Shown here: positions 1,114 to 51,895 of the stretch, in pieces | Position numbering within the stretch: position 1 is the stretch's first letter | Layout: each line of letters begins with the position of its first letter | Source of the DNA: Nannobrachium achirus | Lineage: Eukaryota > Chordata > Actinopteri > Myctophiformes > Myctophidae | NCBI GenBank assembly: GCA_963921795.1 | Contig: OY997641.1 | Coordinates: forward strand, 53,874,950 to 53,938,949 | Reading direction: 5' to 3' | DNA: 64,000 nt | Notes under the pieces: model-generated | Told to the model about the DNA's origin: nothing | What the model saw: only the letters and a program-made list of their open reading frames with translations | The model's database searches: none | Program-made: the position numbers and the translations under genes

Positions 1114-2050
<937 letters not shown>

Positions 2051-2056
2051 CTCTTT
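2051..2056 (-). promoter_or_regulatory. Possible histone downstream element
   Basis: AAAGAG on the minus strand lies about 17 nt past the stem-loop at 2073-2088. Purine-rich elements of this kind pair with U7 snRNA in histone pre-mRNA processing. The motif is short, so this is suggestive only. Confidence 0.35.
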
Positions 2057-2072
2057 GGATAATTTTGTGGGT

Positions 2073-2088
2073 GGCTCTTAAAAGAGCC
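2073..2088 (-). terminator. Canonical histone 3' stem-loop
   Basis: The minus strand reads GGCTCTTTTAAGAGCC then ACCCAC, a perfect replication-dependent histone stem-loop with a six-base-pair stem and four-base loop. It starts 26 nt after the stop codon of the small gene at 2115-2354, the usual spacing in histone mRNAs. No core histone reading frame lies upstream on this strand, so it appears to serve the small winged-helix-like gene. Confidence 0.9.
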
Positions 2089-2114
2089 GTTTGTTTGTTT
2101 GAATGAATGCCTTC

Positions 2115-2354
2115 TCAGCGCTTCCAGAACTCAGCCTGTTCCCATTTGACGTTGAAAGGGGCCTCCGAGCCTCTCCCTTTCATCCTGCTGTGGTTTCGGT
2201 ACTCCACGTCGCCTTTTCTTATCAGCAGTCTCATACCTTCTCTCACATCAAGGCCACCACCTCGAATCTCATAGCGGTTCTGGAGGCTTGCACGAATTGT
2301 GTCGAACCTGGTCCACTTTCTGTTCTGAAGCACGCTGAGGATCTGCTTGTCCAT
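2115..2354 (-). CDS. Small basic winged-helix-like protein, histone-type gene
   Basis: This 79-residue intronless frame starts MDKQILSVLQNRKWTRF and ends FWKR. It is not H1, H2A, H2B, H3 or H4. The frame is open upstream to 2429 but has no earlier ATG, and the start agrees with the related gene at 27815-28105, which also begins Met-Asp. Shared motifs are W-T-[KR]-[FW]-x-T-I near residues 14-20 and, nearer the C terminus, GM followed by L-[LI]-x-x-G-x-V-x-[FY]. My guess is a helix-turn-helix or winged-helix fold with a beta wing; that is inference. I count a net positive charge of about +8. TATA, CCAAT and E2F-like motifs lie upstream and a perfect histone stem-loop downstream, so expression in S phase with poly(A)-minus mRNA is predicted. 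No lesion is visible. The function is unknown. Confidence 0.6.
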   Translation of the reverse strand: MDKQILSVLQNRKWTRFDTIRASLQNRYEIRGGGLDVREGMRLLIRKGDVEYRNHSRMKGRGSEAPFNVKWEQAEFWKR

Positions 2355-2445
2355 GCCGCCGGCGCCAATGGTCTCCTTCTGGATGGATAAGATAGAAGCT
2401 TCTTCCGATGCTGCTGGAATGATGAATCATACGAAAAAGCGTCTG

Positions 2446-2528
2446 CCTTTTATAGCATAAACATGACAGGGCGCCTTTCTCTGATTGGCCTGTGGTCAAA
2501 AACATTTCGCGCCACCTTTTCTGATTGG
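2446..2528 (-). promoter_or_regulatory. Histone-type promoter of the small gene
   Basis: On the minus strand, moving away from the gene: a TATAAAAGG box (2446-2454), a CCAAT box (2484-2488), an E2F-like GGCGCGAAA (2505-2513) and a second CCAAT box (2524-2528). The gene at 27815-28105 has the same elements in the same order. The distal CCAAT box may be shared with the divergent H2A gene starting at 2668. Confidence 0.7.
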
Positions 2529-2965: not shown

Positions 2966-2998
2966 ACCTGCCTCATTCTTCTGAATAAACCCCACAAA

Positions 2999-3014
2999 GG
3001 CTCTTTTAAGAGCC
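2999..3014 (+). terminator. Canonical histone 3' stem-loop (H2A)
   Basis: GGCTCTTTTAAGAGCC followed by ACCCAC, 33 nt after the H2A stop. It is a perfect match to the consensus although the gene itself is broken. An AATAAA also lies between stop and stem-loop (about 2982-2987). Confidence 0.92.
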
Positions 3015-3055
3015 ACCCACTAATTCAACAAAGGGTTGCTTCTAATGGCCTATGA

Positions 3056-3403
<348 letters not shown>

Positions 3404-3961: not shown

Positions 3962-4742
<781 letters not shown>

Positions 4743-5246
4743 CCCATATTTTCGAGAAAGAGTTGATCATGTCCTTAATAATATGTCAGATAAAATCAGA
4801 ACAGTATGAAAGTACCTGAAAGTACAGTATAAGTGGTTAAAACATGATTTCATATCTTCACACTAAGCTCAAACTCTAATGATATTTTACTCCCTCTCAA
4901 GACAGATCCTGCAATATGCTGTATATACATTGAGGATCTGTCAGCACTAAAATCACAAAAACATATTGTATTGACAGATAAAGGACACATTTACCATATG
5001 CCTGTCTCACACACAAACGCGCACGCACGCACACAATAAGCTTCAAACTAAGCTTGTCTGTGCTCCTGTCCTCTATACCGATATGAATCCAACTACAATG
5101 TTGAAATGGAGGACATGAGAAACACTCACTGGTGTTGATGAGGAACTGGTTGTTGAATCCTGGGTGATCCTGGGCAGGGGCGTCACACCAAATTCTGGGC
5201 CCCGGGTACAAGGATTCACTGTGGGGCCCCTGTGCTTTAACTATTA

Positions 5247-5303
5247 AAAAATAGCAGATATACAAGCTCACAGCGCGGCAGAGCTTGTAGATCTGCTATT
5301 TTT
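5247..5303. repeat. Dispersed hairpin repeat, copy 1
   Basis: Arms of 23 bp (AATAGCAGATATACAAGCTC and its inverse with one mismatch) around an 11-base GC-rich spacer. Confidence 0.9.
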
Positions 5304-5488
5304 GAAAAATCGTGAAAATGTGTGCAAGAAACCTGTGTCAAGGACCCCCAAGATGATATGTATTTGGCCACGGACCCCGATCTCAAAATATTTCGTTCCA
5401 GGGACCCCCAGAAGCAAAATTTGAGTTAGAAATGTTCGCTTAAAAATTGCATATTACTCAAAGATTTTCACACATTTTCACAACTTTT

Positions 5489-5562
5489 CAAAAATAGCAG
5501 ATCTACAAGCTCGCAGCGCGGCACTCGGTGCCGCGCTGTGAGCTTGTATATCTGCTATTTTT
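5489..5562. repeat. Dispersed hairpin repeat, copy 2
   Basis: Arms of about 34 bp: AATAGCAGATCTACAAGCTC continuing into GCAGCGCGGCA, with the inverse on the other side. This is the longest near-perfect copy in the first 10 kb. Confidence 0.92.
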
Positions 5563-6208
5563 CAATAGATAAAGTTATTAGGGCCCCTCCACCTTGGGCC
5601 CCAGTAACTCAGTCTAACTTTCCTACCCCTTGTGACGCCCCTGATCCTGGGTGGTCATGAATGGCACTGGCAAAGATAGCAGCCAATATCTCCGGGTCTG
5701 TGAACACAGACTGAGCCTGCTATGAAGATTATCTTATCGTTGATATCTCCATATTCTAACTTATTATTATTTTTCTTTTGTCTTTTTGTTTTCATCAAAT
5801 GAATGCGCTACTTGATCATACTACAGTGTCACACAAATGTATCAAACGTAGCAGATCAAAAATTGGGGAGAACGGGAACGTCCGAAGCAGTAAAAGAGTT
5901 GAATTGGTTCAAATCCATACACTACAGATGCTTTCCAGGTCTAAATGTGCTGAATACCTCCAGAGCGGGGCGAGGAGAGCAGCACGTGCGCAGACTGGAG
6001 GACGTTGGCGGCGTGCACGTTGCTGTGGTAGGCCACGTCTGCGTGGTAGTGGTCCTCCAAGGTCATCAGGTACGTGATCAACGTGTCTGACGGAATCTTG
6101 AACTTCTTCAACAAATCCCTCTCCTGCTCCAGAGGAGGAGATAAAGGGAAGAGAGACATATTTAGCAGACACTCTTAATAATCCCATTTATGCCGATTTT
6201 TTTTTTTT

Positions 6209-6254
6209 AAATAGCAGATATACAAGCTCCTGCGAGCGTGTAGATCTTCTATTT
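6209..6254. repeat. Dispersed hairpin repeat, copy 3
   Basis: Arms AAATAGCAGATATACAAGCT and an inverse with two or three mismatches; the spacer is only about 4 bases. Confidence 0.85.
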
Positions 6255-6495
6255 TTGATTGATTGTGATTTCTTTTGTCTTCAAATAAATATTTTTTTAA
6301 AAGCAAACGAATATTCAAATATTTGCTTCTGGGGGGGGTCCCTGGAACAACACATTTTTAGATGAGGGGTCCGCGGCCAAATGCATGTCATTTTGGGGGT
6401 CCTTTACATGAAGAAGTTTGAGAACCACTGAATTAGAAGGATTTAGAAGACATTTATAGCATCGGGTCAAATGCACTTAATGTTCACGATTTTTC

Positions 6496-6541
6496 AAAAA
6501 TAGCAGGTCTACAAGCTTGCAGCTTGTATATCTCTGCTATT
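6496..6541. repeat. Dispersed hairpin repeat, copy 4
   Basis: Left arm AATAGCAGGTCTACAAGCT, right arm AGCTTGTATATCTCTGCTAT; the spacer is very short. Confidence 0.85.
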
Positions 6542-6611
6542 CTTTAATAGTTTAATAGTAGGAGCTATAGTCAACCTTTTCGTGACTAAAGCTAAAATAA
6601 AAAACGCCTTT

Positions 6612-6672
6612 GCGCGCGTGCAAGACACCAGTCATGTTGCCATACCTTAGCTTTTTCTGAACTGACGCCACT
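6612..6672 (-). repeat. Inverted partner of 516-580
   Basis: Reverse complement of the segment at 516-580, including GCAAGACACC, GTCATGTTGCCATACCTTAG and TGACGCCACT. See the entry at 516. Confidence 0.7.
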
Positions 6673-6854
6673 GAGAATAACCACAAAAAAATTAAAATAA
6701 ATCTAAAATCTGTACATGTACTGTAGGATGCCAGGTCAACAATGACCTGAGAGAGACATTATGAAGCCACAGACACCAAGCAGTGTTGACCAAATTTACG
6801 AGAGAAAAAAAAAAAAAAACAAGCACAACAGAAGCGACTTTGTGCCACATTTTG

Positions 6855-6922
6855 AAAATAGACAATCTACAAGCTCACAACGTGTCGCGGATCAGCTGAT
6901 CACCTTGTAGATCAGCTATTTT
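6855..6922. repeat. Dispersed hairpin repeat, copy 5
   Basis: Left arm ATAGACAATCTACAAGCTCA, right arm CTTGTAGATCAGCTATTTT. The loop region carries its own palindrome, GATCAGCTGATC. It is followed near 6965-7015 by GTCCTTGACATG and TTTGAGAACCACTG, a hAT-like end. Confidence 0.85.
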
Positions 6923-7451
6923 AAACATTTTAACAACACAAATCTGGTACAGGGCTCACAAAATACTTGTAGATGGCGGGTCCTTGACATGAAAATGTTT
7001 GAGAACCACTGGTTTATAAACAACATTAGGAAAGCAAGCTCAAAGTCGCTTATAATAAGGCAGGCTTGGCAACACTGACACCAAGGCAGCTGTTCCGCTC
7101 AAGTGTTGATTGACGTGGACCTACACTGTACTAACATTGGGTGCGTTTATATGCACAGAGGTATTCCACTTATATTCGGAATGACTGCTCATTCAGAATA
7201 GAAATGCTCATATAAACGTTTAGGAATGGCCATTCCGGTCTGACCCGAATTAATTTTCATTCTGGTCTGAAGAGGTGGTTTATGCCGTTTCAATCGGGAT
7301 ACATTTGTCATATAAACGCTCCATTCAGAATGAACTGCTGTCTGACCTGCCCCACCCCCCCCCCCCCCCCCCCCCCCCCTCCGACCTGAAGTAGGCCTAC
7401 TTTGCGTATGCCCAAAGTTCTATTCCGAATGAATCCCTTGGTCATGTAAAC

Positions 7452-7889
7452 CAGTGGTTCTCAACCTGTGGGTCGGGACCCCCAGGGGGGTCGCAAATTT
7501 ATTTTGGGGGGGTCCACAGATGATTATCTCAATGTAACATTGTTGTCTCACTCAACAGTAAACAAACCAACATAAAGTTTAAGTGTATAGAGGGTATCTG
7601 CACATTTCTAAAGTGACAATTTAAGGACTTTTTAATACCTCTGAAATGACAAATTAAACATTGGCCAAATTGTCAAATATCAGAGGCAGAAATTGTGAAA
7701 ATAGACGATCTACATGCTCACAACACCTCGCGTTGCGAGGCGTTGTGAGCATGTAGATCAGCTATTTTCACAATAGAACCGTGTTCCACAAAATGTAATT
7801 CCTCAACTCTTAGTGCATGTGAGTGGGGGGTCCCCAGTTAAAATATGATAATTTTGGGGGTCACGGCCAGAAAAGGTTGAGAACCACTG
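7452..7889. mobile_element. hAT-type MITE, nested
   Basis: Ends CAGTGGTTCTCAACCT and the inverse AGGTTGAGAACCACTG. The 8-bp target duplication ATGTAAAC is perfect (7444-7451 and 7890-7897). A copy of the dispersed hairpin lies at its centre (7693-7773). It inserted into the older MITE at 7139-8012. Confidence 0.95.
7693..7773. repeat. Dispersed hairpin repeat, copy 6
   Basis: Arms of about 38 bp: TTGTGAAAATAGACGATCTA, CATGCTCACAACACCTCG and their inverse, with few mismatches and a spacer of about 5 bases. Confidence 0.93.
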
Positions 7890-8353
7890 ATGTAAACGAC
7901 CGTGGAATGAGGGATACTTGTATTCAGGTCCCATGTAAACGTTTGGGTATGAAGCTCTATTCGGAATAAGTTCATTCTGAATGGCATTCTGAATGTGCAT
8001 ATAAACGCACCCCTTGAGTTCCACCTGTGTCTAGTTTGTTTCAGTGTTTGTTCAGATCATCTGTGTCCATGATCTGATAGTGTGTCTGTCCTGCTTTAAC
8101 CTACAAATACAGGGAAGTGCTGGCCATTGGGAAAAGCGGGACAACTCCCGAACGGCGGTTCATTCCCGGCCGGTCCAGGCCGGCCATTAGGAAAAAAATA
8201 AAATGGCGGCCTTCGTTCCATTTTGGGGGCTGGGCGGCCAACAAAGTAAATCGTCACTGTCGGGCAGAAACCTTGTATCTCCATGTTTCAAATATGTACA
8301 TTTTTTCACAAAGCAAAGCCCTGCTTCATCATACAAGGCCGTCGCACAAAAGT

Positions 8354-8417
8354 AGTGAAAACAGCAGATCTACAAGCACACAACGCCTCGTGTGCTTGTA
8401 GATCGGCTGTTTTCACT
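8354..8417. repeat. Dispersed hairpin repeat, copy 7
   Basis: Arms of about 28 bp beginning AGTGAAAACAGCAGATCTAC and closing GATCGGCTGTTTTCACT. No hAT ends are visible around this copy. Confidence 0.9.
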
Positions 8418-8515
8418 AGTTTAAATCACAAGACAACTACGAAATATAACTCATGTAATTGGCCCATGCACTGGCTTGTCACGATCTGAAAATGGCAAAT
8501 CTTTGAGTTGCAGCA

Positions 8516-8547
8516 GCGCTATAGAGAGAGATCTCTCTCTATAGCGC
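8516..8547. repeat. Perfect 32-bp palindrome
   Basis: The 16-base half GCGCTATAGAGAGAGA is followed directly by its exact reverse complement. There is no spacer. It is unrelated to the dispersed hairpin family. Confidence 0.95.
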
Positions 8548-8814
8548 GCAATGAGGGCCTCTCCAACTCTTCTTCCTGGGCTGAATCAGGGGCCCAGCAC
8601 CTCCCTGTACAAATACTCAACATTACATTTATGTTGGTATTTAAAGCTTGATGTTTCAATTACTCCTGTTACCACATGAACATAACCCATTAAATTGTCT
8701 AGTTAAAGGCACTAAGGGCCAATGTTTGTCGCTTTGAACAGTAACAGCCTTTAACTTTTTCTCTGCCATTTTAAACATAGCTGTAGTAAGCAGCTGCCAA
8801 ATTGTCCTTACCTT

Positions 8815-9145
8815 TTAACGTGGGCACGCGCACGCATCGTGCACAATCTGTGCGCGACTCATCTAGTAGACGTGTAGACTCGGTGACAAGCTTTCGAATA
8901 CAAAAAACCCCATTGAAAAAGACATATCCGTTGCCACGCTGTATCTCTGCTTATCAGCCAGTGTTTACATGAAAAAGCATTGAAAAAAGCCAACTGTGCG
9001 CTATGGTAACACGTGGACACGTTCGCGCACAAAACGCACGATATGTGCGGGGATCATAATCCAGGCCTGTAGAGACTGGATCAAAGTTTCCAAACGCAAA
9101 AATCCGATTGAAAAACGAGCGTTCCATCGCCCAGTAGCTTCCACT
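8815..9145. repeat. Two diverged copies of one segment
   Basis: 8820-8960 and 8995-9140 share an order of motifs: ACGTGG or ACGTGGGCACG, a GCACGATNTGTGCG-like stretch, TAGAGACTGG or GTAGACTCGG, and AATCCGATTGAAAAA or CCCCATTGAAAAA. This suggests an old tandem duplication or two TE ends. No coding sequence is recognised between 8550 and 9545. Confidence 0.5.
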
Positions 9146-9545
9146 TCTGTTACACAGTAAACCAATGGAGGCGGGACTATGGCCCAGGCTCAGACTGGAT
9201 ACGGAAAGCTGGATCCGGTCCAGACCGGAAATGACCGGATACAGTTAGGGGGGCGGGCCTAAAGAGCCAGAATCAGCGAAAATCTGCGCTAATACTTTTA
9301 ATCCTTTCATAATGATTAAAGCTAATTAAACTTTGCGGGCTCTACGGGCATGGCAGCGCGGTACAGCGGGAAATCTACGGTCTCTACGGGGATCGCGAGG
9401 TATGAGTTAACATCACCTTTATGGGTCACGACTCGGATTAAAAACAAATATTTTCTTGCATAATTTTTTTTAAATTAATTAATTATTTATTTTACAATAA
9501 TTGTATGCATTTTAAAACAAGAAAATCACAACAAATGATTAAGTA

Positions 9546-9618
9546 GTAAAAATAGCCAATCTACAAGCTCGCAAAGAGGTGTGAAGCTGCACGTTGTGCG
9601 CTTGTAGATCTATTTTCA
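9546..9618. repeat. Dispersed hairpin repeat, copy 8
   Basis: Left arm AATAGCCAATCTACAAGCTC, right arm GCTTGTAGATCTATTTTCACT; the centre is diverged. Confidence 0.85.
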
Positions 9619-10667: not shown

Positions 10668-11153
10668 ATGGACGAGCTTTTTGTGAATGCGTCCGACGAC
10701 GAATTGTTTTCGGACGCGTCGGTTTTTTCGATAGCTGAAAGCAGCCGTTCAAGTGCAGCTGACTTCCAAAGTCCCTTTCCACCAGCACAGCCGGTCGCAA
10801 TCTCGCCTAGCCAGCCTTCCACCTCGCGCCGAGATGCACCTGTGACCGGCGGCCGTTCGCAGGGGCTCGATTTGCCTCTGCAAACTATTTCACACTGGAC
10901 GGTCGCCGGTCTGCAGGATGTTCTAACAGCGGCCGGCATTCCATTCTCGCGAACGGACCGCAAAGCTTATTTGTTTAGAGCGGTCATGGCCCATTACCGT
11001 GGCACTGACCACCGCCGTGCCGGCTCAGCTCCCGCCACCGCTCCCGCCCCCGCTCGCCCAGCTCCGCCTCCCGGAGCCCTACGTTCCAGCTCTACAACTA
11101 GGCTATCCTCCTCCGCTCCGACTCCTGCAGCTCCACCAGCTCTTCGTCGACAG
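10668..11153 (+). CDS. Gag-like N-terminal segment of DIRS/Ngaro element
   Basis: 162 codons start MDELFVNASDDELFSD. Residues about 76-110 (HWTVAGLQDVLTAAGIPFSR and following) resemble a SAP-like helix-extension-helix, as in fish DIRS/Ngaro gag proteins. A strong splice donor CAG|GTAAGT lies at 11151-11159, exactly at a codon boundary. Without splicing the frame runs on through Pro-Arg-rich repeats to 11936. If spliced to CCCCCCAG at 12525, the next segment joins in phase. That joining is inference; transcripts would decide. Confidence 0.65.
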
Positions 11154-11164
11154 GTAAGTATGCA

Positions 11165-12415
11165 TCCCCCCTCCCCCCCGCTAGGCCGGGACCTAGCCGC
11201 CCCCCTCCCCCCCGCTAGGCCGAGACCTAGTCCCCCTCCCCCCGCTAGGCCGAGACATAGTCCCCCTCCCCCCGCTAGGCCGAGACATAGTCCCGCTAGG
11301 CCGAGACCTAGTCCCCCTCCCCCCGCTAGGCCGAGACCTAGTCCCGCTAGGCCGAGACCTAGTCCCCCTCCCCCCGCTAGGCCGAGACCTAGTCCCGCTA
11401 GGCCGAGACCTAGTCCCCCTCCCCCTGCTAGGCCGAGACCTAGTCCCCTTCCCCCCGCTAGGCCGGGTCCTAGTGGGCAGGCGTCCCAGCACACCTCCCC
11501 CCCCCCCGCAAACGTACTGCTAAAAAGCGGCACATTTTGCCTTCTCCCTCCTCCTCTTCCTCGCACTCCCACCGGCAGCCACACTCCCGCAGGCAGGCGC
11601 GTAATCGCTCCTCGCCTCTCTCTAATCACCCCCCTCCTCTCCCCACTAGGCCGAGACCTAGTCCACCTCCTCTCCCCGCTAGGCCGAGACCTAGTCCGCC
11701 TCCTCCCCCCGCTAGGCCGAGACCTAGTCCGCCTCCTCCCCCCGCTAGGCCGAGACCTAGTCCGCCTCCTCCCCCCGCTAGGCCGAGACCTAGTCCTCCT
11801 CCTCCCCCCACTAGGCCGAGACCTAGCACCCCTCCCCCAACTAGGCCGAGACCTAGTCCTCCCCCTCACTCGAATTCCTAGGCATCACCCTCGACACCGT
11901 AGCCTTCTAAGCTTCCCTTCCCCTAGAGAAGCTTAACCGCATCACCCTCCTATTGCACAATTACATTCTCACTCCCCACTGCACCAAGCGCCTCCTCCCC
12001 CCGCTAGGCCGAGACCTAGTCCGCCTCCTCCCCCCGCTAGGCCGAGACCTAGTCCGCCTCCTCCCCCCGCTAGGCCGAGACCTAGTCCGCCTCCCCCCAC
12101 TAGGCCGAGACCTAGTCCCGCTAGGCCGAGACCTAGTCCACCTCCTCTCCCCGCTAGGCTGAGACCTAGTCCGCCTCCTCCCCCCGCTAGGCCGAGACCT
12201 AGTCCGCCTCCTCCCCCCGCTAGGCCGAGACCTAGTCCGCAGTCCGCCTCCTCCCCCCGCTAGGCCGAGACCTAGTCCGCCTCCCCCCACTAGGCCGAGA
12301 CCTAGCACCCCTCCCCCCGCTAGGCCGAGACCTAGTCCCACTCCCCCCGCTAGGCCGAGACCTAGTCCGCCTCCCCCCACTAGGCCGAGACCTAGCACCC
12401 CTCCCCCTGCCTGCC
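11165..12415. repeat. Pro/Arg-coding minisatellite, units multiples of 3 bp
   Basis: Several dozen units with the core CTAGGCCGAGACCTAGT and a C-rich linker. The common unit lengths I counted are 33, 30 and 21 bp. Each core is nearly palindromic (CTAGG...CCTAG). Because the units are in phase, frames stay open on both strands through the array. A remnant of RT coding sequence (11869-11995) separates two blocks. One further unit lies at about 12835-12872, inside the RT coding frame. Confidence 0.95.
11869..11995 (+). pseudogene. Displaced RT fragment (LEFLGITLD)
   Basis: Reads LEFLGITLDTVAF, a stop, then ASLPLEKLNRITLLLHNYIL and TPHCTKRLL. This matches the segment of DIRS-type reverse transcriptases just after the catalytic motifs. 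It lies upstream of the gag zinc-knuckle and of the RT N terminus, so it is out of its natural order. It is flanked on both sides by the minisatellite. Confidence 0.7.
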
Positions 12416-12477
12416 ACCACCGTCAACATACCCCCCCTGTTACCCCGCACACGCTCCGCAGCCCCCCACCTCCATTA

Positions 12478-12696
12478 GTGCCCAGGCCAGCACCCACTTC
12501 ATCTGCCTCTCGCCCCTCCCCCCAGTCCAATGCCAAGCAGGAGAGGCCCATCCTCGTTCAGGCTGGTAGAACAATCTGCAACAACTTCAACGACAGGGGC
12601 TGTTTCATGTCCAGCTGCCGCTATCTCCATATTTGCTCATTCTGCGGAGGAGCGCATTCCCGGTCCACCTGCCCCCATAACCTGACGAGCGCATGA
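12478..12696 (+). pseudogene. Gag zinc-knuckle segment
   Basis: Contains ICNNFNDRGC, SSCRYLHICSFCGGAHSRST and CPHN, a Cys/His-rich cluster found at the gag C terminus of fish DIRS/Ngaro elements. A CCCCCCAG acceptor-like site ends at 12525 in phase with the donor at 11153. The frame ends at TGA 12694-12696, directly before RT coding sequence in the same frame. Confidence 0.7.
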
Positions 12697-13504
12697 CTAG
12701 GCCATTACCTCAGCACCCCCATCAATATCCCAGCCCTCGCCACTGCTCTCCGTTCCCACCCAGACCGGCCATTTGTCTCATTCCTAATCAACGGCTTCAC
12801 TAATGGCTTCCACCCCGGTACAATAATCAACCTAGTCCTCCTCCTCCCCCCGCTAGGCCGAGACCTAGTCCTCCGCATTATTCCCCAAGGCCGTCCATTC
12901 ATTTCCCACCTCCTCGCCACAGCCACATCCGTCCCCAACCTGCACGACCCTGTCCCTATCACCGACTCCTGCCGCACTGACCTCCGCCTCTGGTGTCACC
13001 TGCTCGAGCAATGGAACGGAATCACCCTATTCTACCAAACCATCATTTCCAACCCAGACGACATCCAATTGTACACAGACGCCGCCCCCTCCATCGGCTA
13101 CGGTGGCTATTATCAGGGCCGTTGGTTTTCTGCTCCATGGTCACCAGAGTTTCACGCCATCACCCCCCCCCCCATCCACTCATCCCATTGTCACAAGTGC
13201 AATTCTTTGGGGATCTGAGTGGTCACAAAGGCGCATACTCATTCACTCCGACAACCAAGCCACCGTCGACATCATAAATAAAGGCCGTTCCAATGCCCCC
13301 AATATCATGCCATTCCTCCGCCGCCTAATTTGGACCTCCGTAACTCACCAATTCATTATCCGAGCCGCTCACGTCCCTGGTCATTCTAACCAAATTGCTG
13401 ATGCTCTGTCCCGCCTTTCCCTCCAGAGGTTTCGGCAGTTGGCGCCCGACGCGGACCTCCATCCCACTCCCATTCCTCCGTTTTCCACAACCACGTTCAC
13501 CTGA
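12697..13504 (+). pseudogene. Reverse transcriptase remnant and RNase H
   Basis: The first part (TPINIPALATALRSHPDRPF and following) matches the RT N terminus. One minisatellite unit then replaces the whole RT core, including the YxDD active site, and the frame continues in phase with RIIPQGRPFISHLLATATS, the post-RT connection. RNase H follows: LYTDAAPSIGYGG with the first catalytic Asp, then after a +1 shift in a C-run (about 13163-13173) HSDNQATVDIINKGRS and HVPGHSNQIADALSRL. RNase H degrades the RNA strand during reverse transcription. This copy is dead for RT. Confidence 0.85.
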
Positions 13505-14454
13505 ACCCCCAGCTCCAACACCTCATCATCCAGGCCCGTCACCACATCATAAACGGCTTTTCCCCCAGGACACTCTCCAGCTACCTTACCGCGTGGAACT
13601 CCTACAAGAGGTTCCACACCACCACCGGCGTCCCGTTCCCGTCCTCCGACATCTCCATCATCGCCGCCTACCTCTCCTACGCTCACTCACACCTCCATCT
13701 CCGTACCTCCACCCTGCACGTCTACCTCAGCGGCATCAACTTCTTCTTCCGCCTGATCGATGGACATCCAAGCCCGGCCATCTCTCACCCCCACATCACC
13801 ATGCTGCTCCGTGGTCTCCAGCGCAGTGAAGTCCAGGTTCCCCCCAGTCGTCACCCACTCACCGCTGACCTACTGCTCCGCTGCCTTCTCACACTCCGAG
13901 CTGGATACCTCACACCCTATATCGCCTCAACCCTGGAGAGGATGTTCCTGCTGGCCTTCTTCGGCTTCCTGCGGTGCTCCGAACCGACGTCCTCCTCCTC
14001 CCGTTACGACCCTTCAATCCACCCGAGCCTGGCTGACATCGTTTTCCACTCCTCCGAATCATTCACATTCAAACTCAAACACAGTAAAACTGACCAGCTG
14101 GGGCGCTCATCCACCATCCACCTATTCAGGTTAGACTCACCCCTCAGCCCTTACGAACGATCCCTCAATGCCACTCCTCACGACCCCCTATTCATTACCG
14201 AGACCGGTTCCATCGCCACCCGATTCTGGTTCCACCATCACCTCCGCCAGATACTGTCCCTCACCGGCCTTCCTCCACAACTCTACTCCGGCCACTCTTT
14301 CCGAATCGGTGCCGCCTCCACCGCAGCCAGTCAAGGTCTGTCAGATCATCTGATCCGCATCCTCGGACGATGGTCTTCCCACGCCTACCACTCATATATC
14401 CGCACCAACATTCACGACGTACGCAACGCTCACTACCACCTAGGCCGTCCGTAG
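13483..14454 (+). CDS. Tyrosine recombinase of DIRS/Ngaro-like element
   Basis: A continuous frame of 323 codons ends at TAG 14452-14454. The N-terminal SAM-like core-binding part (LSSYLTAWNSYKRFH) precedes the catalytic domain. Catalytic residues visible: Arg in AFFGFLRCSE, His-x-x-Arg in GHSFRIGAAS, Trp in ILGRWSS and Tyr in HAYHSYIR. In these elements the enzyme integrates a circular DNA intermediate. No obvious own ATG precedes the core-binding part, so it is probably made as part of a pol fusion or by overlap with the RNase H frame. It is the best-preserved gene of the element. Confidence 0.88.
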   Translation, partial: FHNHVHLNPQLQHLIIQARHHIINGFSPRTLSSYLTAWNSYKRFHTTTGVPFPSSDISIIAAYLSYAHSHLHLRTSTLHVYLSGINFFFRLIDGHPSPAISHPHITMLLRGLQRSEVQVPPSRHPLTADLLLRCLLTLRAGYLTPYIASTLERMFLLAFFGFLRCSEPTSSSSRYDPSIHPSLADIVFHSSESFTFKLKHSKTDQLGRSSTIHLFRLDSPLSPYERSLNATPHDPLFITETGSIATRFWFHHHLRQILSLTGLPPQLYSGHSFRIGAASTAASQGLSDHLIRILGRWSSHAYHSYIRTNIHDVRNAHYHLGRP

Positions 14455-16421: not shown

Positions 16422-17191
16422 TGCGTGCGTGTGTAGGCCTATTTGAAACGGATGGATTCACACCAACAGTGAAGCGTATGCTGTAGCGAATCGAAACCGT
16501 CTTTTTTTTAAATGCCGCCCCTAGACTCTGCCGTTAAACATTGCTCCATGGATCTGCAACCACGACCATCAGACGAGTGTCTACTATAGGGCCTAGTATA
16601 AAGGATAACGCACATAACATTCACTGCTCCTCCTCGCCCTCTTTTGCAACCAATTATGGATGTATCACTTGTTTATTATGGGCTTGTGGGTCTATTATAA
16701 AAAATTATGTACAAGATACTGAAAAGGCGCTGGCGCATGCATCTAGACTAGGATACTGCTGGCAGTTGTTATAATTCCAATTCTTCTACCTGGCTGTGCT
16801 GCTGAATGTGTGCATAATAGACTTTTAAGTCTATGTCTCTGTTTTTTCACATAGCATTTTACACAATAGAATAACGGAACCAGGTGTAAACCAGCTTTAT
16901 TTTAAAAATCACACCCGTGTGAACTGAGCGGTGGTTTACCCCCCCTTCCCCCCTGTGTGTGTGTGTGTGTGTGTGCGTGTGTGTGTGTGTGCCTGGTCTG
17001 GCCTGGCCTGAACAACAGCGCCCCTCCCTTAACATGTGTGGTCATAAAAGGTACTGCAGGCTACATACAGACACACACACACGGACGGACGCATACACAC
17101 ACGGCCACGTATAGGAGACGGTGTAACCACCGCTCAAAAACTATTCTATTATAATGTAGCCTAAAACATTACAACAGAACAGCAAGAGCCG
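14887..17191. other. Intergenic; one MITE, no gene seen
   Basis: Apart from the PIF/Harbinger-like MITE at 15369-15796 there are short (GTGC)n and (GT)n tracts near 16391-16434 and 16953-16991. The small lysine-rich frame at 16240-16446 runs into the GT tract and has no recognisable domain. Confidence 0.6.
15369..15796. mobile_element. PIF/Harbinger-like MITE
   Basis: Inverted ends of about 45 bp start GGGTCGTTTCACAC on the left and, in reverse complement, GGGTCGATTCACAC on the right, both running into GAGCCTAACTAATTTCGGTT. The element is flanked by the 3-bp duplication TAA (15366-15368 and 15797-15799), typical of the PIF/Harbinger superfamily. There is no coding capacity. Confidence 0.88.
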
Positions 17192-17440
17192 TTGGCCGCC
17201 GCGTCCACGTCCATGGACGCGGCCGTGGACGCGTCCATGGACGCGGACGCGAAAAAAACGTCCGTGGACGCGAGGCCGCGTCCACGGACGCAAACGGCCG
17301 GCCGTCCCGGCCGTGGACGCGGCCGTGGACGAGGCCGTGGACGCAGACGGCCGGGGACGCGGCCGTGGACGAGGCCGCGGACGTGGACGCAAACGGCCGG
17401 CCGTGGACGAGTCCATGGACGAGGCCGCGAAAAAAAGGCA
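17192..17440. repeat. GC-rich GGACG minisatellite, left copy
   Basis: Irregular array of CGTGGACGC, GAGGCCGTGGACG and ACGGCCGG units; locally palindromic (CGTCCATGGACG). Its inverted copy is at 23812-24078. It marks the outer end of the large inverted repeat. Confidence 0.92.
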
Positions 17441-17458
17441 GCGAAAAAAAAAAAAAAA

Positions 17459-17815
17459 GTGTCTATTGTATGTATTTTTTGATGGAGAATTCAAATATGA
17501 CCTTCTTTTTTGCATAGGACAACTCTAACCTGCATCAATTGGTATTTTATAATTGCCAATTGTACCCTATCCATCTGAAAAACAAATTGGATGTCTATTG
17601 TATGTATTTTTTGATGGAGAATTCAAATATTACCTTCTTTTTGGGATAGGACAACTCTAACCTGCATCAATTGGTATTTTATAATTGCCAATTGTACCCT
17701 ATCCATCTCAAAAACAAAGTGGATGTCTATTGTATGTATTTTTTGATGGGGAATTCAAATGTTACCTTCTTTTTTAGATAGGACAACTCTAACCTGCATC
17801 AATTGGTGCATCAAC
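17459..17815. repeat. 132-bp tandem repeat, left copies
   Basis: About three units start GTCTATTGTATGTATTTTTT (17461, about 17593, about 17725) and run through AATTGGTATTTTATAATTGC. The right arm has about four units (23310-23800), so unit number has changed since the inverted duplication. (ATCT)n tracts follow at 17817-17880 and 18291-18360. Confidence 0.92.
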
Positions 17816-18290
17816 CTACTATCTATCTATCTATCTATCTATCTATCCATCTATCCATCTATCCATCTATCTATCCATCTATTTATGTATACACCTATTC
17901 ACCTTTAGTCCAGAAGAGAGTTCAGCATCAGGAACTTGCACACATGTAACTGTGTCATGACTGTGTCATGGAGCTAAAACAGGGCTATGTTAAATACTCA
18001 AAATGACTCTGATGGACCAATCAGGGTGGTGGTGGGGGGAGGGATCAACAATAGACAGAAACTGGATAATGCTTTGTTAACTGTCCCACCTAAGTCCCTG
18101 CTAGTCTGAACAAACATCACCTTCCCTCTCATAACACTACTACTACTACATTTATATAAAGCTGCTCTTGCATTTGAATTCAAGTCTGACACAAGTTAAG
18201 GTTAACTTAGGTAGTATTTCATTTTGCTGGCTTTTAGGGTCTGTGTGTGAGTGTGTAGGCTCACAAATTATTATAATTGTCATTAAGTGA

Positions 18291-18327
<37 letters not shown>

Positions 18328-18630
18328 CATCTATCTATCTATCCATCTATCCATCTATTTATTTATACTTACTGTTTACATTTTCTATAAATATTTATTT
18401 CTATATAAAACTCAGTTGTGTGGAGTTATTGTGTGCCTTTTCTTGTAGCTAAAGAGTCCATTTGTTCACTAGACATTAAGTCAAGGTTACTATTTTGAGT
18501 TGAAGCTAAGTGTTTTATTGCTTTGTGGTTTAACATGATTTAAAAGGCAAATTCATTGTTATGGTTACTTTAGAAGACTGCTTTTGCATTCATGAGTTAA
18601 AAAGAGAGCCAAGCTAATTCAAAGAGTTAA

Positions 18631-19130
18631 AGCCATACTGTGTAAGATGCCCAACTAGTGGTCATTAGCCCTATAGCAAACCGCGGTCGCGTCCGCGTCT
18701 TTCGGACGTTTTTCGTACCTTCAGACCCCCGCGTCTGCCTCCACCTCGCTGAGATCTATCTTTTAAGGGGTCCCTTGTTCCTGTGCGTTCAGTAATTCCA
18801 GAGATACGGACTCCTTCACCCTGCCTGGTAGGCGAAATTACCTAGAGAAGGGATGGTACAAACGGGCGACAACAAATATGGCTGCCATAGCGACCCCACT
18901 TCAAGATGCGCTGTGATTGGCCGGCAGTTGTATAACCCTCGCTGTGATTGGCCGGTAGTGTGATGACGCAATTTTGGCGCGAGATCCGGTCCACGGCAAG
19001 GATCTCAGTTTACATACAGAGAAGGCTTTACAGGCTGAAATTCACGGCGCGGATCTTCTAAAACTTTTGTGATTTAATAGTTAGGAGAATTTTAAGATTT
19101 GTTTTATAAAAAAAGTTACATAGTACAACT
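18631..19130. mobile_element. TTAA-flanked MITE, left arm only
   Basis: Flanked by TTAA at 18627-18630 and 19131-19134. The ends are inverted: left TTAAAGCCATACTGTGTAA, right in reverse complement TTAAAGTTGTACTATGTAA. The right arm of the inverted repeat has a clean empty site with a single TTAA near 22495-22506. TTAA duplication suggests piggyBac-type transposition. It has no coding capacity; the interior has two GATTGGCCGG copies. Confidence 0.93.
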
Positions 19131-19816
19131 TTAAGTTAAAGGAACACAAAACATGACCTAACTCGCTGCCATTGGACAGACAGTTACAACATAGGCCTAC
19201 TCTTATCTTTCACAGAACAGACAATTATCATTTGTTTTATCTATTTGAGACTATGTAGCTGCTCTATGGGAAATAGAGCATTATATCAGCCTATTCAATT
19301 GATAATGACCAATGGGTGCCAGTTTCTAAGTAGTTAACCATATTAACATAACAATATATGTGGCCTAGACATGGATATTGCCCAATCAACTCGTAATCTA
19401 CAGAAATGTCCACCACATCACACAGTATAAAACTTAGTAGGCTCAGTGGATTCACCTATGTTAAATCATGTCAGGTTAGTTTGGTTCAAGGTTCAAGTAT
19501 AATAATTTATGAGACAAAAATGTAAACAGCACAAATGTACAATCACATCTCGGCTAGAATGATAACATAAAGTCCTGACTACTCCTTGTTATTGTGGTCC
19601 TAAATACTACAATGATTAGTTTGGATGCATTGCTTCTATCATGTCCAATTAAAAATAAATACATTACATACATACAGAAATCTGCCTTCTCCTGTATTGT
19701 ATTAGTGACATTCATTATAAATAGTAAAATAACAGGACAGAGCAAAAAAGGCCTCTGTTGTGTCTTTATCTGATCACATGCAATCAGACACTCACACTGC
19801 ACAGCAATATATAAAC

Positions 19817-19822
19817 TTTATT
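19817..19822 (-). terminator. AATAAA polyadenylation signal of ZNF gene
   Basis: AATAAA on the minus strand, about 80 nt below the zinc-finger region's 3' end. The inverted copy on the plus strand is at 21810-21815. Confidence 0.6.
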
Positions 19823-19901
19823 ACAGGCTCAAGGCCCACAGGGTAAGAAGACAATACATTACAAAGATAATAATTTAAAAAAACAACAACAGAGAGTACA
19901 T

Positions 19902-20780
<879 letters not shown>

Positions 20781-20829
20781 GCACAGGACAGGGAGAGAAA
20801 ACACACACCTGATAAGAGCCAGATTCACA

Positions 20830-21644
20830 CATTGATCAGCATTTAAGTAACATCATCATTATTATTGTTGAGTCTGAAAAGAACAATACAATGTGATAGA
20901 TCTTTACACATCTGACCCATAACATTATTAGCAATTCACATGGTTACTATAATAGGTGAGTCTTCTAGCTTTTTAAAAATGTAATATTTCATTAATTCTT
21001 TCTCTTACTAAGTGTAACATCCCACTTCTTAATTGTATATTATTTGGAAAGGGTTAGCAAAATGTTTGCCATAAATTCAATGCTGAGTTGCATTTGTTTT
21101 CCTACATTTTCCCCTTCAATGTATTATTACAATGTATTTACTATTTCTTACTTAGGTCTACTTAACTTTGTATTTTTACATTATTATATTGATCAACATT
21201 AACACATAGTGTGTGTTAGGTTAGGTTAGTTGCAGAGTGTCCACAACTGTCCAGAATACACTGTACATAATAGACTCCAGACTTCAAGTGAAGATGAAAT
21301 CTCTAGACGGCACCAGCGGCAATTCTGATGAACGGGTGGAACCCAAAGACCATCAAGATCTCTGTAAGTCACAGACTGAGTAAGTCTCCAGATAAACTCA
21401 CACACATCAAAGTGTTTAAACATTACTTTTATCATTCATGACATAATATCATGTTACTGTTACCTACATGCCTTTATATGGGGAGAACCAAGCAGACCCA
21501 GTTATGATTTTGCTTTTAATAGAAAGGAATCCCTTACATTGTTGTATGTTAAATTACTTTCTGATCTGTTTGTGTTCATTATAACAGCCACAGGAAAGAT
21601 ACATTGTTTCAGATTTTTCCAGAGACTGATGACAGACCCTGGAT
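20830..21644. other. Spacer of the inverted repeat; possible upstream exon
   Basis: Unique sequence between the two arms. On the plus strand 21258-21364 reads an open, acidic stretch (MKSLDGTSGNSDERVEPKD) ending in CT|GTAAGT, which could be an N-terminal exon of a zinc-finger gene. It would point towards the right-arm copy of the ZNF tail, not the main finger exon. The support is weak. Confidence 0.35.
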
Positions 21645-22784
21645 GTAGCTCTGTCAGGTACACGTCTACCATTAGTGGACACTGGCATGAGTGGCATGAG
21701 TGCCTCTTTAGCTCCGGTGGGGCTTTGTGAATGTACTCTCTGTTGTTGTTTTTTTAAATTATTATCTTTGTAATGTATTGTCTTCTTACCCTGTGGGCCT
21801 TGAGCCTGTAATAAAGTTTATATATTGCTGTGCAGTGTGAGTGTCTGATTGCATGTGATCAGATAAAGACACAACAGAGGCCTTTTTTGCTCTGTCCTGT
21901 TATTTTACTATTTATAATGAATGTCACTAATACAATACAGGAGAAGGCAGATTTCTGTATGTATGTAATGTATTTATTTTTAATTGGACATGATAGAAGC
22001 AATGCATCCAAACTAATCATTGTAGTATTTAGGACCACAATAACAAGGAGTAGTCAGGACTTTATGTTATCATTCTAGCCGAGATGTGATTGTACATTTG
22101 TGCTGTTTACATTTTTGTCTCATAAATTATTATATTTGAACCTTGAACCAAACTAACCTGACATGATTTAACATAGGTGAATCCACTGAGCCTACTAAGT
22201 TTTATACTGTGTGATGTGGTGGACATTTCTGTAGATTACGAGTTGATTGGGCAATATCCATGTCTAGGCCACATATATTGTTATGTTAATATGGTTAACT
22301 ACTTAGAAACTGGCACCCATTGGTCATTATCAATTGAATAGGCTGATATAATGCTCTATTTCCCATAGAGCAGCTACATAGTCTCAAATAGATAAAACAA
22401 ATGATAATTGTCTGTTCTGTGAAAGATAAGAGTAGGCCTATGTTGTAACTGTCTGTCCAATGGCAGCGAGTTAGGTCATGTTTTGTGTTCCTTTAACTTA
22501 ACTCTTTAAATTAGCTTGGCTCTCTTTTTAACTCATGAATGCAAAAGCAGTCTTCTAAAGTAACCATAACAATGAATTTGCCTTTTAAATCATGTTAAAC
22601 CACAAAGCAATAAAACACTTAGCTTCAACTCAAAATAGTAACCTTGACTTAATGTCTAGTGAACAAATGGACTCTTTAGCTACAAGAAAAGGCACACAAT
22701 AACTCCACACAACTGAGTTTTATATAGAAATAAATATTTATAGAAAATGTAAACAGTAAGTATAAATAAATAGATGGATAGATG

Positions 22785-22821
<37 letters not shown>

Positions 22822-23255
22822 TCACTTAATGACAATTATAATAATTTGTGAGCCTACACACTCACACACAGACCCTAAAAGCCAGCAAAATGAAATACTA
22901 CCTAAGTTAACCTTAACTTGTGTCAGACTTGAATTCAAATGCAAGAGCAGCTTTATATAAATGTAGTAGTAGTAGTGTTATGAGAGGGAAGGTGATGTTT
23001 GTTCAGACTAGCAGGGACTTAGGTGGGACAGTTAACAAAGCATTATCCAGTTTCTGTCTATTGTTGATCCCTCCCCCCACCACCACCCTGATTGGTCCAT
23101 CAGAGTCATTTTGAGTATTTAACATAGCCCTGTTTTAGCTCCATGACACAGTCATGACACAGTTCCATGTGTGCAAGTTCCTGATGCTGAACTCTCTTCT
23201 GGACTAAAGGTGAAGTATAAATAAATAGATGGATAGATAGATAGATGGATAGATG

Positions 23256-23300
<45 letters not shown>

Positions 23301-23309
23301 TAGGTTGAT

Positions 23310-23800
23310 GCACCAATTGATGCAGGTTAGAGTTGTCCTATCTAGAAAAGAAGGTAACGTTTGAATTCCCCATCAAAAAATACATACAATAGACATCCAA
23401 TTTGTTTTTGAGATGGATAGGGTACAATTGGCAATTATAAAATACCAATTGATGCAGGTTAGAGTTGTCCTATTCCAAAAAGAAGGTAATATTTGAATTC
23501 TCCATCAAAAAATACATACAATAGACATCCAATTTGTTTTTGAGATGGATAGGGTACAATTGGCAATTATAAAATAAATACCAATTGATGCAGGTTAGAG
23601 TTGTCCTATTCCAAAAAGAAGGTAATATTTGAATTCTCCATCAAAAAATACATACAATAGACATCCAATTTGTTTTTCAGATGGATAGGGTACAATTGGC
23701 AATTATAAAATACCAATTGATGCAGGTTAGAGTTGTCCTATGCAAAAAAGAAGGTCATATTTGAATTCTCCATCAAAAAATACATACAATAGACACCTTT
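23310..23800. repeat. 132-bp tandem repeat, right copies
   Basis: About four inverted units corresponding to 17459-17815. One has a 4-bp duplication (AAATAAATA). (GATA)n tracts precede it at about 23222-23300 and 22769-22820. Confidence 0.9.
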
Positions 23801-23811
23801 TTTTTCTTTTT

Positions 23812-24078
23812 TCGCTGCCTTTTTTTCGCGGCCTCGTCCATGGACTCGTCCACGGCCGGCCGTTTGCGTCCACGTCCGCGGCCTCGTCCACGGCCGCGTC
23901 CCCGGCCGTCTGCGTCCACGGCCGCGTCCACGGCCGCGTCCACGGCCGCGTCCACGGCCGGGACGGCCGGCCGTTTGCGTCCGTGGACGCGGCCTCGCGT
24001 CCACGGACGTTTTTTTCGCGTCCGCGTCCATGGACGCGTCCACGGCCGCGTCCATGGACGTGGACGCGGCGGCCAGCG
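23812..24078. repeat. GC-rich GGACG minisatellite, right copy
   Basis: Inverted copy of 17192-17440, slightly longer because of extra CACGGCCGCGTC units near 23917-23955. Confidence 0.92.
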
Positions 24079-27814: not shown

Positions 27815-28105
27815 TCAATTCCGTCTAAAGCGAGTGGCTGGCCAGTCAATTTCCTCCCACTCAGCATAGGCACGTTTTGCACCGTGTGCTCCAATTTTAA
27901 AGACCACCCTGCCGGCTTGCAGCAGATCCAACATGTGGTATCCCCACATACCCTGCCCTGGATTGGGCGAGCCAGAGCGGCGCGCGACTCCCCCAGGCTG
28001 ATTGTAGCCCGGCTGAGCCAGCGGATCTTGCCCCTCTAGGCGCTTCTGGATTGTAGACCATTTAGTCCACACGTTGGGCTTCATAACAGCGGCGATATCG
28101 TCCAT
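27815..28105 (-). CDS. Winged-helix-like small protein, second family member
   Basis: 96 residues start MDDIAAVMKPNVWTKWSTIQ and end WPATRFRRN. It shares with the gene at 2115-2354 the Met-Asp start, W-T-[KR]-[FW]-x-T-I, the GM...L-[LI]-x-x-G-x-V-x-[FY] block and a basic C terminus. It has an extra Gly/Pro/Ser-rich loop (residues about 31-52). Its upstream region has the same ordered TATA, CCAAT, E2F-like and CCAAT motifs. No histone stem-loop follows; poly-G sequence begins 14 bp after the stop. The frame is intact, but correct 3' end formation is doubtful. Function unknown. Confidence 0.6.
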   Translation of the reverse strand: MDDIAAVMKPNVWTKWSTIQKRLEGQDPLAQPGYNQPGGVARRSGSPNPGQGMWGYHMLDLLQAGRVVFKIGAHGAKRAYAEWEEIDWPATRFRRN

Positions 28106-28152: not shown

Positions 28153-28238
28153 CCTTTTTATATCATGGGCTCAGAATCGCCGCCTTTTTCTGATTGGTCT
28201 GTGGTCATGAGCACGTTCGCGCCACTACTTGTTATTGG
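28153..28238 (-). promoter_or_regulatory. Histone-type promoter of the second member
   Basis: Minus strand: TATAAAAAGG (28153-28162), CCAAT (28193-28197), E2F-like GGCGCGAA (28216-28223) and CCAAT (28234-28238). Order and spacing match 2446-2528. Beyond it, 28389-28412 is an inverted repeat (GAACTATGGC...GCCATAGTTC). Confidence 0.7.
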
Positions 28239-28668
28239 TGGGGAACCCATCCACAGAGGAACCTCCTTCTTTGGGGAGGAACCCACAGCTTTTAGACAGG
28301 GGGCAGGGCTCTGGGCGGAACCATCTGACGTCGATGATGCTGACAGACTTTACTTTAGAGGAAGGAAGGACAAACTACTAGCTGAAAAAGAACTATGGCA
28401 GAAGCCATAGTTCTAGTTCATAGTTAAAATTGTGGCAAGCTTGTAATTGCTATGCATACACTCCGTGTGAAGGTTAATCTGACAAGGTACTGTACAAGGT
28501 AAGCAGGATCATATAGGCAACTACCCTGTCGGTTACCGTTACTCGTGTCCTTGGAATTACACAGAATACAAGCATCTGGAGGACGAAAGGTTTTCTAAAT
28601 GTCACTTGAAACGACCAACGCCGTCGCTGACTCACCTTTTTCACCTTTTTCCTACCTGCCGGGCAGGT

Positions 28669-28928: not shown

Positions 28929-29898
28929 CAATTTTAAAGACCACCCTGCCGGCTTGCAGCATAGACGGATTATGAAAAAATGGGCCCCTGGGCACCAAAA
29001 TGCAAAGGGCCCCCCCTTCTTACGACCACGCGGCGACGCATCAACGGTGTGTGTTCTGTGTGCGCGGCACAGCCGCGCCAGAAAAAAAATCACGATTCAA
29101 AGAGGAAACATTTTAAAAGGAATAAAAAATAAAATGTATAAAATATGGTGCTGACTTATTTATTTAATATATATTATTATCTATATTTTAATAATACATT
29201 ATTCATTATACTTCTTGCAAGAGTTTGGCCCCTATCAAAGAATCCCACTTGTCCCAGGCAGCCAGGTAAGGCTGGTGGTATCACATACTTAAAGGACCAG
29301 TCAAGTGTTACATGATGCTATGGTATGAATGAGGGGGCCCATTTAGATTAATAAGGGTAGATAACATATATAATATATAAATAATATAACATCTACCCCG
29401 GTTTATCTACTGTAAATGGGCCCCTTCATTGTTATTATGCGTGGACATTAGAACATCTAATGTTGTTGTTGTTTTGCACTTGCTTTTTGGATCCCTCACT
29501 CTGAAAACTTATAGATAAACTGAGGAGTTACACTTACAGTAACATGTATCTTGATGGATTAGGAATATTTGGGGTTATATTAGTGACATGTCAATGTCAA
29601 TGTTAATAACAGGGACGCGGTCACACGGTGGCTCAAGCTCAGGGGCCCCCCTAGCTCAGGGGCCCCTGGGCCTGGGCCCATTGTGCCCGTTGGGTAATCC
29701 ATCCCTGGCTTGCAGCAGATCCAACATGTGGTATCCCCACATACCCTGCCCTGGATTGGGCGAGCCAGAGCGGCGCGCAACTCCCCCAGGCTGATTGTAG
29801 CCCGGCTGAGCCAGCGGATCTTGCCCCTCTAGGCGCTTCTGGATTGTAGTCCATTTAGTCCACACGTTGGGCTTCATAACAGCGGCGATATCGTCCAT
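28928..29898 (-). pseudogene. Winged-helix-like gene, third copy, split by hAT
   Basis: 29898 to 29708 encodes the first 63 or so residues, almost identical to the gene at 27815-28105 (S to T at residue 17). A hAT element (28960-29707) interrupts the codons for LLQA. The next 32 bp of the gene continue at 28959-28928, where a G-run array takes over, so the C terminus is lost. The promoter copy upstream (to about 30215) is intact and nearly identical to that of the second member. Confidence 0.85.
28960..29707. mobile_element. hAT-type element, 748 bp
   Basis: Perfect 8-bp target duplication GCTTGCAG (28952-28959 and 29708-29715). Ends start CATAGACGGATTA and, in reverse complement, CAGGGATGGATTA. 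The body has no transposase; it contains GGGCCCCTGGG-type motifs in both orientations near the ends. Confidence 0.93.
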
Positions 29899-30217
29899 GG
29901 CTGCTACTCGATGGCGACGACGGTGCCCGTTACGGACAGCGGGCTCCTTTTTATATCATGGGCTCAGAATCGCCGCCTTTTTCTGATTGGTCTGTGGTCA
30001 TGAGCACGTTCGCGCCACTACTTGTTATTGGTGGGGAACCCATCCACAGAGGAACCTCCTTCTTTGTGGAGGAACCCACAGCTTTTAGACAGGGGGCAGG
30101 GGGCAGGGCTCTGGGCGGAACCATCTGACGTCGATGATGCTGACAGACTTTACTTTAGAGGAAGGAAGGACGAACTACTAGCTGAAAAAGAACTACGGCA
30201 GAAGCCGCACCAGCTCC

Positions 30218-31116
30218 GGCCAAGGCGACTTGCTTTTATAAAAACGCCATGTTTTTGCCCATGTAAGACCACTATGCTTTTATGATGGGGGGGGGGGGGG
30301 GGGGGGGGGTACTGGGGCAGGGTGGGCAGGTAGTGGCGACTTGCTTTTATAAAAACGCCATGTTTTTGCCCATGTAAGATGGGATCCCTTCCTGGGAACA
30401 ACAGACCTCTAATGGATGGTCCCTTCTTAATCGTGCTTCTCTTCACGATTTTTTGCCCATGTAAGACCGCTATGCTTTTATGATGGTGGGGGGGGGGGGG
30501 TACTGGGGCACTGGATACTGGGATCCTGAGGCTGCTGCTCTTCGGGGCCTTGCCCCCCCGGGAACTCGGGGGGGTACTGGGGCAGGGTGGGCAGGTAGTG
30601 GCGACTTGCTTTTATAAAAACACCATGTTTTTGCCCATGTAAGACCGCTATGCTTTTATGATGGTGGGGGGGGGGGGGGGTACTGGGGCAGGGTGGGCAG
30701 GTAGTGGCGACTTGCTTTTATAAAAACACCATGTTTTTGCCCATGTAAGACCGCTATGCTTTTATGATGGTGGTGGGGGGGGTACTGGGGCAGGGTGGGC
30801 AGGTAGTGGCGACTTGCTTTTATAAAAACGCCATGTTTTTGCCCATGTAAGACCGCTATGCTTTTATGATGGTGGGGGGGGGGGGGGGGTACTGGGGCAG
30901 GGTGGGCAGGTAGTGGCGACTTGCTTTTATAAAAACGCCATGTTTTTGCCCATGTAAGACCGCGATGCTTTTATGATGTTATGATGGTGGGGGGGGGCAC
31001 TGGGTACTGGGATCCTGAGGCTGCTGCTCTTCGGGGCCTTGCCCCCCCTGGAACTCGGGGGGGGGGGTACTGGGGCAGGGTGGGCAGGTAGTGGCGACTT
31101 GCTTTTATAAAAACGC
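30218..31116. repeat. G-run array (B)
   Basis: About eight units like those at 28669, with G-runs of 8-25. Near 30360-30440 a unit is interrupted by GATGGGATCCCTTCCTGGGA sequence, and near 30530 and 31000 the GGATCCTGAGGCTGCTGCTC segment appears. Confidence 0.92.
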
Positions 31117-42777: not shown

Positions 42778-42890
42778 CTACACAGAGATAGAGGGAGGGG
42801 GGGGGGGGGTCTTAGTGGGCCTCTTTTACGCATTATTTGATTTGGCCATAAGAAGGTATCCATATGTGTCATTTTAAGCCGAATACTTAA

Positions 42891-51509: not shown

Positions 51510-51540
51510 GCAATGACACATCATACGCCCATGTCCTCAC

Positions 51541-51783: not shown

Positions 51784-51895
51784 CTACACAGAGATAGAGG
51801 GAGGGGGGGGGGGGTCTTAGTGGGCCTCTTTTACGCATTATTTGATTTGGCCATAAGAAGGTATCCATATGTGTCATTTTAAGCCGAATACTTAA

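Follow-up and report, generated by a model that had tools for sequence, protein, structure and literature searches.

Replication-dependent histone genes share a compact anatomy. They are intronless and clustered, with a promoter of CCAAT, E2F and TATA motifs or of H1 type, and their short 3′ untranslated region (UTR) carries a stem-loop and a downstream AAAGA. As far as we know, this way of ending an mRNA is regarded as nearly confined to the five classes of histone. The window analysed here, 64,000 nucleotides (nt) of the lanternfish Nannobrachium achirus (assembly GCA_963921795.1, contig OY997641.1, forward-strand positions 53,874,950 to 53,938,949), contains a gene, c1, with this anatomy whose protein is by sequence none of the five histones. 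c1 is one of a family of small genes without introns that lie mainly in histone clusters and have the construction of replication-dependent histone genes. We consider it probable that they encode linker-histone-like DNA-binding proteins of S phase. No paper describing such genes was found in the literature searched, which covers subscription journals only in small part.

c1 is an intronless open reading frame (ORF) of 79 codons on the minus strand (2115-2354), and its product is basic (isoelectric point 10.6). The histone 3′ stem-loop GGCTCTTTTAAGAGCC (2073-2088, minus) begins 26 nt past the stop. In a search of the whole window, Rfam RF00032 matches here at 2049-2093 (minus) with 38.9 bits (E 7.2e-8) against a gathering threshold of 34 bits, which is reached at only one other place in the 64 kb, the stem-loop of a neighbouring H2A gene. 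Further 3′ lies the downstream element AAAGAG (2051-2056, minus), presumably a U7 site. Upstream on the same strand are a TATA box, TATAAAA (2448-2454, with TATAAA at -100 from the ATG), a proximal CCAAT box that forms part of the conserved block TGACCACAGRCCAATCAGA (2484-2488, -134), an E2F-like site GGCGCGAA between both CCAAT boxes (2506-2513) and a distal CCAAT box (2524-2528, -174). The joint arrangement of CCAATCAG, GGCGCGAA and TATA occurs at three places in the window, all preceding family members. Frameshifted relatives of c1 start with ACC-ATG-GAC, and the aligned position of c1, read by eye, is ACC-ATT-GGC; the c1 ORF thus starts at the next in-frame ATG. A preliminary description had recognised this combination of a non-histone frame, stem-loop and upstream motifs, had placed the gene divergent to H2A and had called it the only undamaged gene of its cluster. 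All of this holds; H2A (2668-2965, plus) and the H4 and H2B pieces nearby are broken.

The 75-nt core of the c1 promoter finds two further places in the window, at 28.2 and 30.0 kb (76% identity, E 1e-8), with a small gene downstream of each. The first, c2 (27815-28105, minus), is intact and encodes 96 residues; its promoter (28155-28240, minus) contains CCAAT, GGCGCGAA, CCAATCAG and TATAAAA and is homologous to those of c1 and H3. The second, c3 (29707-29898, minus, with a further piece at 28929-28961), is a tandem duplicate of c2. There is a histone H1 start remnant (MAEA, 28395-28406, plus) divergent to c2 and an H1 N-terminal remnant ([T]AEAAPAPAKA, 30195-30227, plus) divergent to c3. Since c1 adjoins H2A and c2 the H1 remnant, each intact member in the window has a histone gene, or what is left of one, as its divergent neighbour. 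The proteins of c1 and c2 share 26% identity; a score as high as that of their global alignment arose in 1 of 2000 shuffles and, for the local alignment, in 2 of 2000, the local path being unlike the global one. No stem-loop is left at c2 or c3; this says little, because a G-rich repeat replaces the c2 flank soon past the stop and c3 is interrupted by an insert.

The 1.66 Gb host genome holds at least seven matches to c1 and at least eight to c2, both counts being lower bounds. The c1 matches are the window copy, one nearby copy, and four tandem copies plus a single one on C14. The nearby copy (C4:53866472) is 10.6 kb from c1, outside the window, whose start it precedes by 8.5 kb. The two loci are near-identical, with identical proteins and two nucleotide differences, both synonymous, and the duplicate is too young for measuring selection. 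The C14 copies are 44-48% identical to c1, the tandem ones spaced 6-7 kb apart. All seven c1-type loci, c1 included, carry their own stem-loop at or above gathering directly past the gene. The c2 matches comprise c2, c3, three copies at C4:59.29 Mb (two of them intact), one at C4:58.18 Mb and weak matches on C15 and C19. An own stem-loop at gathering is present in three of the eight (L018, L019, L023), and in L020, a partial copy, one base of the stem-loop is changed and the score falls below gathering. The C4:58.18 Mb member (L026:5734-5985) has an H3 gene on one side and an H1 gene on the other and is followed by two hairpins, the first (+23 from the stop) altered at one loop base and the second (+49) perfect. 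Another member, L038:495-743, is flanked by H3 and H2A/H1 and ends just before an H3 coding region. Homologues of c1 also exist in histone clusters elsewhere in this genome. Among the tabulated genes, the 16 letters of the stem-loop are identical to those of c1 in seven of the nine others (the exceptions are c2 and the first L026 hairpin), and AAAGA follows downstream in seven of all ten. Past the L026 stem-loops, a short frame with a similar start pattern (MNNENHILGDMRAEAWNRGW..., L026:5420-5549) is perhaps another broken member.

A genome search for the stem-loop, in which 75 of 325,083 candidates were scored, returned at least 75 places that reach gathering. We classified 53 of the 75 (30 + 23), leaving out the other 22. 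A canonical histone or histone piece precedes the stem-loop in 46 of these 53, and no histone does so in seven (L029, L030, L031, L032, L033, L034, L052). In five of the seven (L029, L030, L031, L034, L052) a non-histone ORF ends 32-36 nt upstream of the stem-loop, L030 and L031 being near-identical copies; L032 and L033 have no ORF of at least 45 codons upstream of it. A related gene with its own stem-loop is present at L025:2017-2325.

Comparison with histone promoters of the same genome, the H1 reference being the frameshifted H1 gene of L026, points to histone genes as the source of the flanks. The promoter of the L026 member matches the H3 promoter at 92.8% over 195 nt (E 1e-70), and c2 and c1 match it at E 5e-14 and E 3e-6. 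The promoters of L025, L034, L031 and L052 resemble the H1 promoter across 228-244 nt, with 77-79% identity (E 4e-48 to 5e-54), and contain AAACACA, which we take to be the H1 box, at -184 to -210. Family 3′ ends likewise match histone 3′ ends, that of c1 being closest to H1 (83% over 59 nt, E 7e-13) and then to H4 (E 2e-12). The family thus has replication-dependent histone-type anatomy, with an H3-like promoter in one subgroup and an H1-like promoter in another, short UTRs, a stem-loop and a U7-type element, and the similarity of promoters and 3′ ends indicates homology to histone genes; the stem-loop is retained even among strongly diverged members. An origin of the ORFs by frame shift from H1, H3 or H2A was ruled out on ten coding sequences, which gave short matches only. 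These included 19 nt for c1 (E 0.009) and, for L052, 41 nt of H2A at 71% (E 0.001), which is unexplained; the H2A used came from L054, and its first residues differ from the canonical ones. Read by eye, a stretch of the L052 3′ UTR (1470-1500) resembles the last H2A codons, as if an H1 5′ part and an H2A 3′ part had been joined; BLAST of this 3′ end did not single out H2A.

AlphaFold predicts a confident winged helix for an alignment of nine family members. For c1, the alignment-based model reaches a predicted local distance difference test score of 81 and a predicted template modelling score of 0.70, in line with the small, basic, winged-helix-like protein originally proposed; a single-sequence model was too poor for use. 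The globular domains of the linker histones H5 and H1 are among the joint best structural matches. The predicted domain is of the winged-helix type found in H1/H5, a fold common to many other families. Family members differ from the linker histones in having no significant sequence similarity to their globular domain and no lysine-rich C-terminal tail; they total 79-102 residues and end within or just past the last strand. A histone fold is not indicated for c1, which has no Pfam histone match and no PDB sequence match and is modelled as a winged helix. Pfam gave weak matches far below cut-off (NdhM, E 0.18; Bacteriocin_IIi, E 0.022) and neither a histone nor a linker-histone match, PDB sequences matched alignments at E 0.81 or worse, and IMG/VR gave no relative. 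c1, c2 and the nine-member alignment found no homologue in a set of 5.8 billion proteins. The fish content of all these collections is uncertain, so absence from them says little.

The coding regions have changed quickly. The proportions of synonymous (pS) and nonsynonymous (pN) differences are 0.51 and 0.36 between c1 and the frameshifted L003, 0.49 and 0.33 between c1 and part of L007, and 0.72 and 0.47 between L025 and L052, where none of 1000 bootstraps reversed the order. The two L018 copies are identical and hence uninformative for selection. L034 and L031 share 92% identity across 300 nt upstream and 54% across coding DNA. W14, I20, L24, L44 and V50 are kept in all five members of the first subgroup, and open frames of 79-102 codons persist in members 12-27% identical to c1. 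We read this as suggesting rapid and partly diversifying coding change under constraint from the fold; the similarity of the flanks may reflect either constraint or exchange between histone clusters.

These features suggest how the genes might work. E2F and NF-Y would switch them on at G1/S, and the U7 small nuclear ribonucleoprotein with SLBP would cut the pre-mRNA past the stem-loop, giving a poly(A)-minus message that persists through S phase only. From such G1/S transcription and SLBP/U7 processing it would follow that the protein is made in S phase. A small basic winged-helix protein without lysine-rich tails could then bind DNA or nucleosomes as they form and so join new chromatin. Rapidly evolving sperm chromatin proteins offer a parallel for conflict-driven change, and fast coding divergence within conserved flanks fits genetic conflict or a specialised germline or early-embryo role. 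Tentatively, the family may constitute a new class of replication-coupled chromatin protein in fish histone clusters, fast-diversifying, tail-less and linker-histone-like, each gene with histone promoter and mRNA ending, and possibly driven by conflict (chromosome drive, repeat control). If so, the S-phase supply route of histones would have been recruited for new proteins, the family would supply chromatin candidates open to direct test, and fast coding change in constant regulatory flanks would indicate conflict or specialisation in replication-coupled chromatin.

Several observations weigh against a family of functional, histone-like S-phase genes. They can be summarised as (i) the histone cluster of the window is decayed and c3 is broken, the tandem C14 copies (L003-L006) share one frameshift, the single one (L007) has another, and the L029 gene is interrupted, its ORF being the second half; (ii) no histones were found near the C14 copies (40 kb and 10 kb checked), and the weak c2 matches on C15 and C19 have no stem-loop; (iii) the L018 copies have neither CCAAT nor TATA motif in the stretch examined, L038 has no CCAAT and shows no match to histone promoters, and it has AATAAA in place of a stem-loop, possibly as a replication-independent version; (iv) the two subgroups are linked weakly (hhalign E 0.031), and neither the family nor its subgroups match H1 significantly (hhalign E 0.27-0.81); (v) the bacterial winged helices BlaI, Zur, PadR and Fur tie with H1/H5, their structural Z being equal within error, although these are bacterial regulators and the family has a vertebrate histone-cluster setting; (vi) pN is close to pS in five of nine pairs (c2-L018, L023-L038, L034-L031, L034-L052, L031-L052), and c2-L023 (pS 0.44, pN 0.38) favours constraint only weakly. 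Purifying selection on the c1 frame, on which the preliminary description had depended in part, is indicated only weakly, by the comparison with L003, and in most other pairs pN is about equal to pS.

Three other explanations deserve consideration. The genes might descend directly from histone H1 genes, having lost the tails and changed past sequence recognition. The predicted fold, for which H5/H1 rank with the best structural matches, the H1-type promoter of four members and the H1-like 3′ end of c1 all fit such an origin. So does an alignment of c1 with an H1 globular domain (z 3.3, reached by 5 of 1000 shuffles), but c1 aligns nearly as well with the winged helix of SAMD1 (z 3.0, 6 of 1000), c2 shows no H1 signal (z -0.4), and the promoters of c1 and c2 are of H3 type. 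Among comparisons with the winged helices of SAMD1, KAT6A and ADAR, c1 with SAMD1 gave the only, and weak, signal, and c2 gave none. Together with the non-significant hhalign result, this makes H1 derivation rather unlikely, yet the strongest of the three.

It is improbable that the ORFs have no product and are decaying or chance frames in duplicated histone cassettes that had their coding part replaced or scrambled. The many broken copies in the histone clusters of this genome, the frameshifted or interrupted family members and the near-equality of pN and pS in most pairs are what gives this explanation its weight. It accounts poorly for frames that stay open at such low identity to c1, for the five invariant residues and the confidently folding alignment, for the purely synonymous differences between the recent c1 copies, and for the excess of pS over pN in c1-L003 and L025-L052. 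Least probable of all is a winged-helix protein derived from a mobile element or virus that acquired histone control regions. Fast evolution and the C14 copies, which lie outside histone clusters with four in tandem, would suit a mobile origin, as would ORFs near them that we take to be Harbinger transposase-like; the few copies found (at least seven and eight matches) and the lack of a convincing Pfam or PDB sequence match or an IMG/VR relative argue against it, element ends not having been searched for. No strong match to a transposable-element protein appeared in Pfam or IMG/VR. The reading as histone-like S-phase genes remains the one we favour.

The cluster around c1 consists of histone pieces. 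H2A has lost its N-terminal part and keeps its own stem-loop (2994-3038). By tblastn, an H4 without a start (3101-3403, plus), an H2B split by an insert (3962-4736, plus) and an H2B C-terminal piece (1117-1296, minus) were located; the same search did not find H1 or H3 in this cluster.

Elsewhere in the window, ORFs at 10668-14454, presumably DIRS-like, have a tyrosine-recombinase-like end (GHSFRIGAAS...LGRWSSHAYHSYIR) and an inner array of the palindrome CTAGGCCGAGACCTAG. A very long inverted repeat, seen by eye, spans 17190-24060, with zinc-finger-like coding sequence near its centre and isolated CCAAT and E2F-like sites (ATTGGCCGG...TTTGGCGCGA) at 18930-18985. Short near-palindromes (AATAGCAGATCTACAAGCTC...GAGCTTGTAGATCTGCTATT) form a small repeat scattered at 5244-9610, 49040 and 57610 of the window and at L026:1000. 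At 28700-55300 there are large blocks of G-rich tandem and segmental repeats in which multi-kb units recur, and a duplicated exon resembling a P-type ATPase, presumably ATP2B-like, lies at 42540-42780 and 51540-51790.
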